Positions 53,053-64,000 of a stretch of DNA of 64,000 bases are shown here, in pieces (position 1 is the stretch's first letter; every line of letters starts with the position of its first letter). Both the position numbers and the translations under genes were made by a program. Below the pieces are notes generated by a model. It was not told the origin of the DNA, did not search any database, and saw nothing but the letters and a program-made list of their open reading frames with translations. This DNA comes from Aurantimonas coralicida DSM 14790. GTDB taxonomy: Bacteria; Pseudomonadota; Alphaproteobacteria; Rhizobiales; Rhizobiaceae. Location of the stretch: assembly GCF_000421645.1 (NCBI RefSeq), contig NZ_ATXK01000014.1, positions 1 to 64,000 of the forward strand. The letters are read 5' to 3'.

Positions 53053-53068
53053 TGTTTCACGTGAAACG
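53053..53068. other. parS-like site 5, next to parB
   Basis: TGTTTCACGTGAAACG matches the ParB consensus at 15 of 16 positions. It lies in the 105-bp gap between the ends of holA and parB, the closest site to the parAB genes. Confidence 0.88.
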
Positions 53069-53084: not shown

Positions 53085-54071
53085 TCAGAGATCGCGCGTC
53101 CGCGCCGTCTCGGAGACGCGCTGGACCCGCGTCTGGAGCAGGCCGCAGATCTCGTCGAGCTGCTCCAGATCGGCATATTCGATCCGGATCGATCCGCCTT
53201 CGCCCTTGACGTCGATCTCGACCGGCATGCCCAGAAGCTCCGCCAGCAGCCGCTCCAGAGCCAGCGCGTCGGAATCCTTCTCGAGGGCCAGTGCGGCCTT
53301 CGGCCGGCTCTTGCCGCCGGACGCCTTCTTCGGCTTCGCGGCCTCGCCCGCTGCGGGCTGGCGCGCCAGCTCCTCGGCCTCGCGCACGCTGAGGCCGCGC
53401 GAGACGATCTGCTTGGCCACGGACACCGGGTCCTCGGCCGTGACGACCGTGCGCGCCGCGCCCGGCGACAGCGTCCCGCTGGCCACCATTGTGCGGACTT
53501 CCTCGGGAAGCTTCAGAAGCCGCAGCGTATTCGCCACATGGCTGCGGCTTTTGCCCAGCACATCGGCGAGATCGGCCTGGGTATAGCCATGCTCGTTGAT
53601 CAGCATCTCGTAGCCCAGCGCTTCCTCAACCGCATTGAGGTCGGCGCGCTGGACGTTCTCGATGATGGCGATTTCCAGCGACTGGCGGTCGCCGATCTCG
53701 CGCATGACCACCGGCACTTCGGTGAGGCCCGCCGCGCGCGCGGCCCGCCAGCGGCGCTCGCCGGCGACGATCTCGAAACCGTCCGGCACGCCAGGGCGCG
53801 GCCGCACCAGCAACGGCTGCACGACGCCATGATTGCGCACCGACGCGGTCAGATCGTCGAGATCGGCCTCGTGGAAGGTGCGCCGCGGATTGTTCGGATT
53901 TGGCGAAATCGCGTCGATCGGAATATGCCGCTCGGCCGGGATGGCCGGCGGTGCCGGCTGCTCGGCCTGGGCGCCGAAACCCTGGCCGGGACGGGCAGGG
54001 GCCGATCCACCGGCCCCGATCAGCGAGGCGAGTCCACGCCCGAGACGCTGGCGCGACTTGTCTTCGTTCAT
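53085..54071 (-). CDS. parB: Chromosome partitioning protein ParB
   Basis: A 328-residue CTP-dependent DNA clamp that loads at parS. It starts MNEDKSRQRLGRGLASLIG with GGGGAGA upstream; earlier in-frame Mets would overlap parA. It has ISPNPNNPRRTF, the CTP-binding ENVQRADLN and GERRWRAAR (residues 104-112), the HTH TQADLADVLGKSRSHVANTLRLL near 159-181, and a C-terminal dimerisation domain. It lies 92 bp downstream of parA. Nine parS-like sites lie in this window. Confidence 0.97.
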   Translation of the reverse strand: MNEDKSRQRLGRGLASLIGAGGSAPARPGQGFGAQAEQPAPPAIPAERHIPIDAISPNPNNPRRTFHEADLDDLTASVRNHGVVQPLLVRPRPGVPDGFEIVAGERRWRAARAAGLTEVPVVMREIGDRQSLEIAIIENVQRADLNAVEEALGYEMLINEHGYTQADLADVLGKSRSHVANTLRLLKLPEEVRTMVASGTLSPGAARTVVTAEDPVSVAKQIVSRGLSVREAEELARQPAAGEAAKPKKASGGKSRPKAALALEKDSDALALERLLAELLGMPVEIDVKGEGGSIRIEYADLEQLDEICGLLQTRVQRVSETARTRDL

Positions 54072-54163
54072 CTTGGTCTCCCCATTCCTCGGCGCGCCCG
54101 CGCCATCCCCGTCCGTTGCATCGGGGTCTTCGCCCGCCCTTCCGTGATCGCCATATCGGTTGT

Positions 54164-54973
54164 TCATGCTGCCTGCAGCCCGCGTTCGCGCTGGATGATT
54201 TCCGAGGCCAGCCGGATATAGGCCTGGCTGCCCGGACATTTCATGTCGTAGAGGATCGCCGGCTTGCCGAAGGACGGCGCTTCGGAAACCCGCACATTGC
54301 GCGGGATGATCGTCTCGTAGACATGGTCGCCCATATAGGACCGCACGTCCCGCACCACCTGAGCCGCCAGATTGTTGCGACCGTCATACATGGTCAGCAC
54401 GATGCCATGCAGGTCGAGCGTCGGGTTCAGCGAATCCCGCACCTGCTCGACCGTCTGCAGGAGCTGGCTGAGGCCTTCGAGTGCGAAGAACTCGCACTGC
54501 AGCGGCACCAGGATGGAATCGGCCGCGGCCATGGCGTTGATGGTCAGGAGGTTCAGCGACGGCGGGCAGTCAATCAGCACGAAGTCGAATTGCGGCGTCT
54601 CGACCTGGTGGAAATGCAGCGCGTCGCGCAGCCGGTAGGCGCGGCCGGTCGCGCCTGCGATCTCCATCTCGAGGCCGAGAAGGTCCAGCGTCGAAGGGAT
54701 CAGGCTGAGATTGGGCACGGCCGTCGGCATGGCGGCCTCGGTGATCGAGGAGGCTTCGGTCAGCACGTCGTAGGACGACACTTCGCGATTGTCGCGATCG
54801 ACGCCCAGCCCGGTCGAGGCATTGCCCTGGGGATCGAGGTCGATCAGCAGCGCACGCTTGCCGATCGCGGCCAGTGCCGTCGCAAGGTTGATGGCGGTCG
54901 TCGTCTTGCCGACCCCGCCCTTCTGATTTGCAATCGTGATGATCCGCATCGGCTGTCCGCTCATCGCATCCAT
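54164..54973 (-). CDS. parA: Chromosome partitioning ATPase ParA
   Basis: A 269-residue Walker-type ATPase driving ParB-parS segregation. The deviant Walker A is KGGVGKTT at residues 18-25, Walker A' LLIDLDPQGNAS, and Walker B FVLIDCPPSLNLLT. IIPRNVRVSEAPSFGKP near the C-terminus is typical of chromosomal ParA/Soj. The ATG at 54973 has GGGAGCGG upstream. Order rsmG-parA-parB is the standard origin-linked arrangement. Confidence 0.97.
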   Translation of the reverse strand: MDAMSGQPMRIITIANQKGGVGKTTTAINLATALAAIGKRALLIDLDPQGNASTGLGVDRDNREVSSYDVLTEASSITEAAMPTAVPNLSLIPSTLDLLGLEMEIAGATGRAYRLRDALHFHQVETPQFDFVLIDCPPSLNLLTINAMAAADSILVPLQCEFFALEGLSQLLQTVEQVRDSLNPTLDLHGIVLTMYDGRNNLAAQVVRDVRSYMGDHVYETIIPRNVRVSEAPSFGKPAILYDMKCPGSQAYIRLASEIIQRERGLQAA

Positions 54974-55056: not shown

Positions 55057-55779
55057 TCAGCGCGGCGCGATCTCGTCGATCTCGAGGACGACAGATCCGT
55101 CATCGAGGCTCGATTCATGCTTTATCATGCTGAATCGCCAATGGGCAGTCGCCGCGTTAATTTCCTGTTCATGGTTGCGCCCCTTCTGGAAGAAGCAGCG
55201 CGTATCGGCCCGGATATGCGGCGCCACGAGGGCGAAGAGCTCCGTCAGCGACGCCAGCGCCCGGGCGGTCACGATATCCGCCTTGGCGAGCACGCTTCCG
55301 CAATCCTCGATCCGCGCCGCATGGGCCGTTCCGGTGAGGCCCAGATCGCGCTGGACCGCCCGAAGGAAGGCGATCTTCTTGCTGTTCGCCTCGACGAGAT
55401 CGACGCTGAGGCCGGGGCGCGCGGCGGCGATTACCAGTCCGGGCAGGCCCGCGCCCGACCCCAGATCCGCGCAGAGCGTCGCTTCAGGAAGAAGCCGCTC
55501 GAGCGCCAGCGAATCAGCGATGTGCCGTGACCAGACATCGCCGATCGTCGCCGGCGCGACGAGGTTCATCCGGGTCTGCCATTCGGTCAGCAATGCAACG
55601 TAGCGGTCTAGTCGCTCGAGCGTTTCACGTGAAACATTATGTGTGGACAGGAACTCCGCCCGTCCGCGCTCCTGCGCCGCCGCCACTTCTGCCGGACGCG
55701 GCTTCGGGGCCGAACGCGTCTTGGTTACCGGGCGAACGTAAGGCCTCGCCGGCTTTTCCGAATCGCGATCACGCCGCAT
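55057..55779 (-). CDS. rsmG: 16S rRNA (guanine-N7) methyltransferase RsmG
   Basis: 240 residues. After a basic, poorly conserved N-terminus comes the SAM-dependent core with [18 protein letters not shown] at about 105-122, [12 protein letters not shown], and [11 protein letters not shown]. It methylates G527 (E. coli numbering) of 16S rRNA. Residues 49-53, Val-Ser-Arg-Glu-Thr, are encoded by a parS-like palindrome. It overlaps the mnmG stop by 11 bp. Confidence 0.95.
55621..55636. other. parS-like site 6, inside rsmG
   Basis: CGTTTCACGTGAAACA (minus strand TGTTTCACGTGAAACG) matches the ParB consensus at 15 of 16 positions. It lies within the rsmG coding region, reading Val-Ser-Arg-Glu-Thr. 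Confidence 0.88.
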
Positions 55780-62729: not shown

Positions 62730-63749
62730 TTACCCGCGGATGCGCTTCAACAGCGCCTCGACATGGGCGATCGGCGCATCCGGGGTGATGCCGTGGCCGA
62801 GATTGAAGATCAGCGGCCCGTCGCCGAGCCCTTCCAGGATCCGGTCGACACCCTCGTCCAGCGCCTTGCCGCCGGCAATCAGCCGCAGCGGATCGAGATT
62901 GCCCTGGATCGCGCCTTCGGTCTGCAGCGCGCGCGCCTGGTCCATCGGCACCGTCCAGTCGAGACCGACGGCATTGACGCCGGTCTTCTGGCGATAGCCG
63001 TTCAGCAGCGAACCCGCGCCCTTGGCAAAGCCGATGATCTTGGCGTCCGGCACCGCGGCGCGGACCTTTTCGACCATCCGCGCGACGGGCTTGACCGCAT
63101 AGGCCTCGAAGGACGCCTCATCCAGAACGCCGGCCCAGGAATCGAAGATCTGGACGCAGTCGGCACCGGCCTGGAGCTGCCGGATCAGATAGTCGGCGCC
63201 CATCTCGGCGAGGAGATACAGAAGCTGCTCCATCTCGTCGGGATGGCGATAGCCGAACAGCCGTGCCGGCGCCTGGTCGGGCGTGCCGTGGCCGGCGATC
63301 ATGTAGGTCGCCACCGTCCAGGGTGCGCCGCAGAAGCCGATCAGCGACGTCTCTTCCGGCAGTTCCTTGCGCAGCCGCGCCACCGTCGCGATGACCGGCG
63401 CCAGATGCGTGTCGGCACGGCTCGGATCGAGGCGGGCGATCTCGTCGGGGCGGATCGGCGTCAGCTTCGGTCCCTCTCCCTGCACGAAATGCAGACCGCG
63501 ATCGAGCGCATCCGGGATGACCAGAATGTCGGAGAACAGGATCGCCGCGTCGAATCCGAAGCGTCGGATCGGCTGAAGCGTCACTTCCGTCGCAAAGTCT
63601 GGATTGTAGCAGAGCTCGAGGAAGCCCCCGGCCGTCTGACGGGTGGCCCGATATTCCGGGAGATAGCGACCGGCTTGCCGCATCAACCACACCGGAGGGG
63701 GGAAGATGCGTTCGCCTTCCAGGACACGGACAAGCTTGCGCGTCTTCAT
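62730..63749 (-). CDS. hemE: Uroporphyrinogen decarboxylase
   Basis: A 339-residue enzyme converting uroporphyrinogen III to coproporphyrinogen III. It has [22 protein letters not shown] at about 15-36 with the substrate-binding arginines, [14 protein letters not shown] (catalytic Asp), [14 protein letters not shown] and [17 protein letters not shown] near the end. The first gene of the minus-strand origin-linked block, directly bordering the putative oriC. Confidence 0.97.
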
Positions 63750-64000
63750 CAGGTCAGGGCTCCCATTAAAAAAGAAAGATTTCTTTCAGATGAGTCTTTT
63801 GATTCTATGACTCGGTGGATTGCAGGAATTCACAGGGTCCCGCCTAGATGGAGCCCTTAGCAGGATCGTCCACAGGCCGGAATGCCGCATCGTGTCGTCA
63901 GGGGACAATCCCGGGGACGATCGCCGGATCCGATCGGTCTATCAGCAGCTTGCGCCCACGGCGATGGACGCCCCCCCTGGGGATGAGTTTGGGATGGCGG
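63750..64000. other. Candidate chromosomal replication origin (oriC), truncated by the window edge
   Basis: A non-coding region upstream of hemE, the position of oriC in Caulobacter and in Sinorhizobium meliloti. Its left part is strikingly AT-rich for this genome, with a 7-bp inverted repeat AAAGAAA/TTTCTTT at 63771-63786. Three CcrM-type GANTC sites fall within 22 bp (63792, 63801, 63809). DnaA-box-like 9-mers with two mismatches lie at 63826-63834, 63866-63874 and 63978-63986 (reverse). The rest of the origin would lie beyond the window. Confidence 0.6.

Follow-up and report, generated by a model that had tools for sequence, protein, structure and literature searches.

The hemE-maf intergenic region

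The window, by which we mean the whole stretch of 64,000 bp that was analysed, corresponds to bases 1-64000 of C14, a contig of 98,965 bp in a genome of 4.6 Mb and 38 contigs, and the closest named relative by HemE was Aurantimonas marina (88% identical, from a single scan). Near the right end of the window lies hemE, the gene beside which the original prediction had placed its cluster of GANTC sites, and the identity of the gene was confirmed by the Pfam match to URO-D. Between hemE and maf (C14 64285-64884, + strand) there is an intergenic gap of 535 bp (C14 63750-64284), of which the part beyond 64000 lies outside the window, as do maf itself and the aroE, coaE and, farther on, exonuclease-domain genes which follow it. 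The genes parA, parB, gidB, gidA, trmE and rho are found within 11 kb to the left of the gap. The coordinates of the features are collected in Table 1.

Table 1. Features in and near the hemE-maf gap, in window coordinates
Feature	Position	Strand	Basis or remark
parB (53085-54239) and parA (54164-54973)	53085-54973	-	Pfam ParB_N, HTH_ParB, ParB_C; AAA_31, CbiA
parS-like site GTTTCACGTGAAAC	55622-55635	.	One of three exact copies, the other two at 53054 and 40341
hemE (uroporphyrinogen decarboxylase)	62730-63749	-	Pfam URO-D, E 4e-110; left neighbour of the putative origin
hemE-maf intergenic region, left 251 bp of 535	63750-64000	.	From ORFs; taken as oriC
AT-rich stretch, presumed unwinding side	63763-63812	.	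Sequence; A-rich columns -24 to -18 of the family alignment
GAGTC	63792-63796	.	Outside the conserved element; position not conserved
Four DnaA-trio-like triplets, 5'-TAG-AAT-CAA-AAG-3'	63796-63807	-	Overlap GANTC site 1 (GATTC, 63801-63805)
27-bp element TTTTGATTCTATGACTCGGTGGATTGC	63797-63823	-	Above 20 bits in 57 of 60 family genomes
6-bp spacer, GANTC site 2 (GACTC, 63809-63813)	63808-63813	.	GANTC in 55 of 60 family genomes
Degenerate DnaA box CAATCCACC	63814-63822	-	6 of 9 to TTATCCACA (by eye); outside the matches with up to 2 mismatches
DnaA-box-like GAATTCACA (7 of 9)	63826-63834	+	Faces the box at 63814-63822; largely conserved in aurantimonads
DnaA-box-like TCGTCCACA (7 of 9)	63866-63874	+	Match within 2 mismatches
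DnaA-box-like TCATCCCCA (7 of 9)	63978-63986	-	Match within 2 mismatches

The AT-rich island that had been described next to hemE was also found, with 53% and 56% AT in the 100-bp windows from 63701 and 63751 against 33% for the contig, and a perfect inverted repeat (AAAGAAA-GA-TTTCTTT, 63771-63786), partly common to A. marina, lies between hemE and the conserved element. The gap is about 0.5-0.7 kb long in the aurantimonads and a few others versus approximately 1.26 kb in most other family loci, and in locus L320 a Kinase-PPPase gene (PF03618, L320 2225-3046) lies between the origin and maf. Locus L033, on a contig titled Bacillus subtilis SK6B4, has a rhizobial hemE-origin region and is probably a mislabelled record.

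GANTC density and signs of a replication origin

The three clustered sites, GAGTC, GATTC and GACTC, span exactly 22 bp as predicted. The motif was also expected to be rare, and it is, although the guess of approximately one per 300 bp was too high, with the actual frequency being about one per 780 bp (126 in the 98,965 bp of C14 and 515 in a 400-kb sample of the genome). A trio of GANTC within 30 bp is found only once on C14 and once in the 400-kb sample. The whole gap holds 9 sites (at 63792, 63801, 63809, 64006, 64152, 64165, 64195, 64200 and 64278) versus 0.77-0.79 expected from its flanks, which gives a density of 16.8 per kb; the genome sample has 1.3 per kb, and its ORF-free segments have 2.9 per kb. 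With the 535-bp gap modelled as a first-order Markov chain, the probability of a trio within 22 bp was 0.005, and that of at least 9 sites was 0.0095. To see how GANTC compares with motifs of the same composition, we calculated its ratio to the mean of 7 such palindromes, which was 3.53 for 60 family origin regions, in comparison to 0.67 for the sample of the own genome and 0.98 for its ORF-free segments. Of 102 gaps, 46 carry at least three GANTC within 30 bp in their first 300 bp (44 of 97 after removal of duplicates), in comparison to 5 of 3034 control windows of 300 bp taken from these loci.

Near the maf end, outside the window, a tandem of GANTC sites (GAATCGAGTCC, C14 64195-64205) was observed; in the form GANTCGANTC it is kept in 15 of 17 aurantimonad loci, or in 13 of 15 gaps once two duplicates are set aside. 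Upstream of dnaA, a stretch of 535 bp (C2 236642-237176, equal to L134 11642-12176) carries 10 GANTC, the highest density anywhere in the 500 kb examined (the 400-kb sample plus C14), and is the sole other region as dense as the gap; it falls within the 400-kb sample because the dnaA neighbourhood was deliberately chosen. A dnaA-linked origin was considered on account of this GANTC-rich stretch and rejected, contig C2 being without a parS-like site at up to one mismatch.

With regard to DnaA boxes, several motifs matching 7 of 9 positions had been reported for 63750-64000. Three matches to TTATNCACA with 2 mismatches are indeed present there, but the signal is weaker than stated, with a chance mean of 1.0 and P = 0.086, and no match to TTATNCACA with up to one mismatch was found in the same stretch. 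When the count was extended rightwards over the whole gap, as had been proposed, 8 matches with up to 2 mismatches were obtained against a chance mean of 2.0 (P = 0.004), two of the 8 being the two strands of one overlapping place (64065-64074), and no other 535-bp stretch of C14 has more DnaA-box-like 9-mers than the hemE-maf gap. The sole match in the gap within one mismatch, TTGTCCACA (8 of 9), lies on the minus strand at 64066-64074 and thus outside the window, and finding at least one such box is compatible with chance (P = 0.14); the 535-bp gap holds no perfect DnaA box.

The GC skew, a further check that had been proposed, gave a divided result. The flip expected at hemE was seen in a relative with a 3.7-Mb contig (G022, from twenty 20-kb samples), with a skew of -0.026 for the 20 kb preceding hemE and +0.034 for the 20 kb that follow, but the cumulative skew of C14 itself is weak, with its minimum at 56 kb and a second dip near 80 kb. 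A second flip in G022 lies between 1.14 and 1.33 Mb, roughly opposite hemE if the contig is circular; since the left arm of G022 is mixed, we take the skew as support for the origin and not as proof. Parallel to this, a search of the whole 4.6-Mb genome with up to one mismatch placed all 8 parS-like sites on C14, 7 to the left and 1 to the right of the gap. The original prediction of a probable oriC was thus upheld by the gene order, by parS-like sites confined to the contig that carries parA and parB, by the skew flip in the relative, by the excess of DnaA-box-like sequences, and by a conserved element resembling a DnaA box with DnaA-trios. Taken as a comparison of sequences, the assignment of the hemE-maf gap as the chromosomal replication origin (oriC) is well supported.

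A conserved 27-bp element with GANTC as its spacer

An alignment of the own gap with 14 aurantimonad gaps revealed a block in which two GANTC sites are combined with two degenerate DnaA boxes facing each other, with shorter conserved blocks to the right, one of which is the tandem GAATCGAGTCC. Read on the minus strand, the left part of the block consists of a degenerate DnaA box, a 6-bp spacer GASTCW and four NAN triplets, and in several aurantimonads the box position (63814-63822) reads CTATCCACC, which matches 7 of 9. We then ran a 27-column model of this element on the DNA upstream of hemE from the same GTDB family, for which 61 genomes were drawn and 60 had a hemE match. The three genomes below 20 bits were G006 and G044, both small genomes, and G039; to give a scale, a related 35-column model peaks at 5.8 in 400 kb of the own genome. 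The A in the middle of the triplets (columns 0, 3, 6 and 9) is invariant in 59, 59, 60 and 60 of the 60 genomes, respectively, and A is found in 37-43 of 57 at columns -24 to -18. The GANTC cluster starts upstream of hemE, at a distance of about 40-100 bp in the 60 family genomes and 40-230 bp in 102 loci. An exact 14-letter core pattern occurs once each in three of the five genomes searched and is absent from the other two, where slightly changed copies lie beside hemE or maf.

The two GANTC sites in the element are not kept alike. Site 1, which overlaps the triplets, is present in 29 of the 60 family genomes, and only 5 (G006, G026, G034, G039 and G044) have no GANTC at site 2. On a quick single-gene HemE tree of 75 loci, namely the own locus and the 74, out of 80 named rhizobial loci, for which hemE and maf were both available, site 2 was GANTC in 75 of 75, a count which leans towards GANTC, as the model that places the element contains GANTC columns. 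The G, A, T and C letters of site 2 showed 0 changes on the tree in comparison to at least 9 for the N position, and the A columns of the triplets likewise showed 0 changes; because site 2 reads GAGTC in 66 loci and GACTC in 9, each GACTC row was counted as its own change. As N is only C or G, part of the constraint may lie in how strongly the spacer is base-paired. In general, the comparison suggests that the GANTC letters of site 2 are under strong constraint.

To examine how far this arrangement extends, a class set of 128 genomes with a hemE match was assembled, and 87 besides the own were scanned. Many of the 87 have a similar layout upstream of hemE, for example G201, G093 and G082, where the triplets are clearly of the TTG/TAG type, the spacer is, for instance, ATCC and the box is of the CTGTGGATAACGGGGAT type. 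Against a null of one Markov sequence per genome (95th percentile 12.6, maximum 16.3), 53 of the 87 scored above the maximum, and GANTC was present in the triplet-spacer stretch of 4 of these 53; counted anywhere in the triplet-spacer stretch of the best match, it was present in 8 of the 87. At the order level 59 genomes had a hemE match, the best 30 of the 59 were given loci, and 28 loci were counted, of which 4 have GANTC at the site-2 columns and only L271 (12.8 bits) scores positive; spacers in the other order-level loci are, for example, TAGGC. The GANTC spacer being mostly absent outside the family, it looks largely like a family trait in these comparisons.

As the element lies close to hemE, we also asked whether it belongs to that gene. 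Eight loci without maf in the flank were examined; five have the element near hemE and three (L021, L026 and L078) do not, and in the three genomes concerned (G271, G272 and G273) the element is found beside maf. For G271 (L021/L318, Pseudaminobacter soli) and G272 (L026/L324, Mesorhizobium ephedrae), hemE lies away from the origin and is without the element, which is found beside maf and a UPF0093 gene. The core pattern occurs once in G272 and once in G273, and G271, which is without the exact form, has a model match of 36.6 bits. In the genome G273 (L078, L326) hemE is present twice, at the origin and at another place. Since the element stays at the origin where hemE does not lie there, it appears to belong to the origin rather than to hemE, and a control element specific to hemE is unlikely; the UPF0093 gene downstream of the element in G271 and G272 leaves room for a promoter of whichever gene follows. 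A non-coding RNA such as CcnA was rejected as a candidate, as no Rfam match at gathering thresholds was found in L002 3600-4400; a CcnA-like homologue was not clearly detected in S. meliloti according to PMC8959179.

Known origins, CcrM and the reading of the element

The element resembles, from its sequence, an unwinding element of the DnaA-box/DnaA-trio type with a CcrM site as the spacer. For a basal unwinding system (BUS), as in Bacillus subtilis and others, the search rule asks for three or more NAN triplets no farther than 16 bp from a DnaA box (PMC8287927), and in the present element four NAN triplets are found within that distance of the box position, separated from it by 6 bp. It differs from a BUS in its weak box, in a spacer shorter than the reported peak of 10-13 bp, and in that the spacer is a methylation site. 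With Caulobacter crescentus Cori the region has in common the link to hemE, AT-richness, weak DnaA boxes and several GANTC (PMC3973325, PMC8959179), and unlike Cori it is without CtrA-type sites. The CtrA motifs are TTAA-N7-TTAA and TTAACC, neither of which was found in the own 535-bp gap, and control by CtrA was rejected on this basis; TTAACC/GGTTAA half sites occur in 5 of 14 aurantimonad relatives. The E. coli oriC (L268) is similar in geometry, having AT-rich repeats with GATC directly beside a TGTGGATAA DnaA box, and differs in its methylase and motif (Dam, GATC). When the family model was run on it, R1 was the best match in a 551-bp stretch, but an equally high score is reached by 10-13% of Markov sequences; a common sequence was therefore rejected as not significant, and only the geometry is compared. 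Agrobacterium ori2 (repABC) likewise has CcrM sites in a replication origin, at which hemimethylation has been proposed to restrain re-firing (PMC11514494), but it is a RepC origin and not a DnaA origin, and the effect was found at ori2 and was not significant at ori1. Among the matches listed in the open-access literature, we found no GANTC placed between a DnaA box and DnaA-trios, which is not proof of absence; a family-wide element of the unwinding type, whose spacer is filled by a CcrM site and whose functional role is putative, would thus be new.

A CcrM-type gene is present in the own genome and in all 61 family genomes drawn, so that a GANTC conserved beyond chance is found together with ccrM. 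As no family genome drawn is without ccrM, covariation could be compared only outside the family, where the excess of GANTC upstream of hemE was 2.03 in the 72 genomes that have CcrM and 2.04 in the 15 that do not, a genome being called CcrM-negative if no match at E <= 1e-20 was listed for it (for 20 of the 40 negatives this was deduced from their not being named, and G069, whose match is partial at 45%, was put among the negatives). Class-wide covariation with CcrM was thus rejected. According to published work, CcrM seems to be essential in other alphaproteobacteria studied (PMC6090056), GANTC motifs are on record in the C. crescentus origin and deletion of ccrM there left replication control normal (PMC3973325), and overexpression of CcrM in A. 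tumefaciens caused over-initiation at ori2 with a non-significant change of ori1 focus number (PMC11514494).

The reading we prefer is that the region is the chromosomal origin and that two of the three clustered GANTC lie within its DNA-opening element, to which we assign a probability of about 0.78; this value covers the origin and the opening element and excludes any effect of methylation. The location, conservation and geometry of the element and the constraint on its GANTC letters come from the sequence comparisons given above. That the cluster arose by chance in AT-rich intergenic DNA which is not an origin is extremely improbable: AT-rich and ORF-free DNA of the own genome does carry more GANTC, 2.2 to 2.9 per kb versus 1.3 overall, but the density in the gap exceeds this several times, the element is kept in 57 of 60 family genomes, clusters of GANTC are rare in control windows (5 of 3034), and the parS-like sites and the skew speak for an origin. 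That the cluster is a promoter under GcrA/CcrM control for hemE and the hem genes following it, lying incidentally in the origin, is a better founded though still rather improbable explanation. GANTC is reportedly enriched between the genes on most alphaproteobacterial chromosomes and promoters carrying methylated GANTC are where GcrA acts (PMC8116508), hemE transcription in C. crescentus is tied to the origin (PMC8959179), the distance of the cluster from hemE, both in the family genomes and in the wider set of loci, is compatible with a promoter, and the UPF0093 genes of G271 and G272 are downstream of the element and in the same direction. Nevertheless, a scan of the gap for sigma-70-like promoters, which covers the sigma-70 type, gave 0 with 0.1 expected, all three hemE copies away from the origin (L021, L026 and L078) are without the element, in two of those genomes the element stands at an origin without hemE, and the A columns with a period of 3 beside an adjoining DnaA-box half fit an unwinding element better. 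The hemE promoter was rejected as a candidate on the absence of a promoter-like match in the gap and on the off-origin hemE copies without the element.

A third explanation accepts the opening element but holds that the GANTC letters are kept only as spacer and trio sequence for DnaA, methylation being irrelevant. It is the most serious of the alternatives, while still unlikely in our judgement, and agrees with the overlap of site 1 with the triplets and its absence from 31 of 60 family genomes, with the restriction of N at site 2 to C or G, with the equal excess of GANTC in class genomes with and without CcrM, and with the normal replication control after ccrM deletion in C. crescentus (PMC3973325). 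The evidence against it is that other alphaproteobacteria have different spacer letters (of the ATCC, GGATGC and TAGGC types), from which DnaA seems not to need GASTC, and that 0 changes at the G, A, T and C letters against 9 at N are the pattern expected of a protein that reads GANTC.

Under the reading of an origin with an opening element, DnaA would act at this place by binding the weak box at 63814-63822, and probably also the box facing it at 63826-63834, and a DnaA filament would extend onto the bottom strand of the four triplets, after which the AT-rich stretch would open in the direction of hemE. The spacer between the box and the triplets would at the same time be a CcrM site (GASTC), with a second CcrM site overlapping the triplets in about half of the relatives, and CcrM would be expected to methylate these adenines, so that the origin would be fully methylated before firing and half methylated afterwards until CcrM returns late in the cycle. 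The methylation state may in this way change the ease of opening. If a fully methylated GASTC spacer, together with the trio site, favours opening by DnaA and a hemimethylated one disfavours it until the return of CcrM, the element would act as a once-per-cycle lock independent of SeqA. SeqA is not known to occur in alphaproteobacteria.

The claim of the original prediction that firing is controlled by methylation is conjectural in comparison to the assignment of the origin. The CcrM gene and the constrained GANTC are in its favour, and against it are the 5 of 60 family genomes without site 2, the missing covariation with CcrM, and the published results in C. crescentus and A. tumefaciens, which oppose at least its simple version. 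For these same reasons the lock is a minority reading which we regard as doubtful. Should it be true, the lock would parallel the Dam GATC sites in the unwinding region of E. coli. With a methylation site at a fixed place between the presumed DnaA box and the presumed trios throughout the family, the question is narrowed to 27 bp that can be put to in vitro unwinding and origin-plasmid tests, and the element may serve as a sequence marker for the origins of the family.
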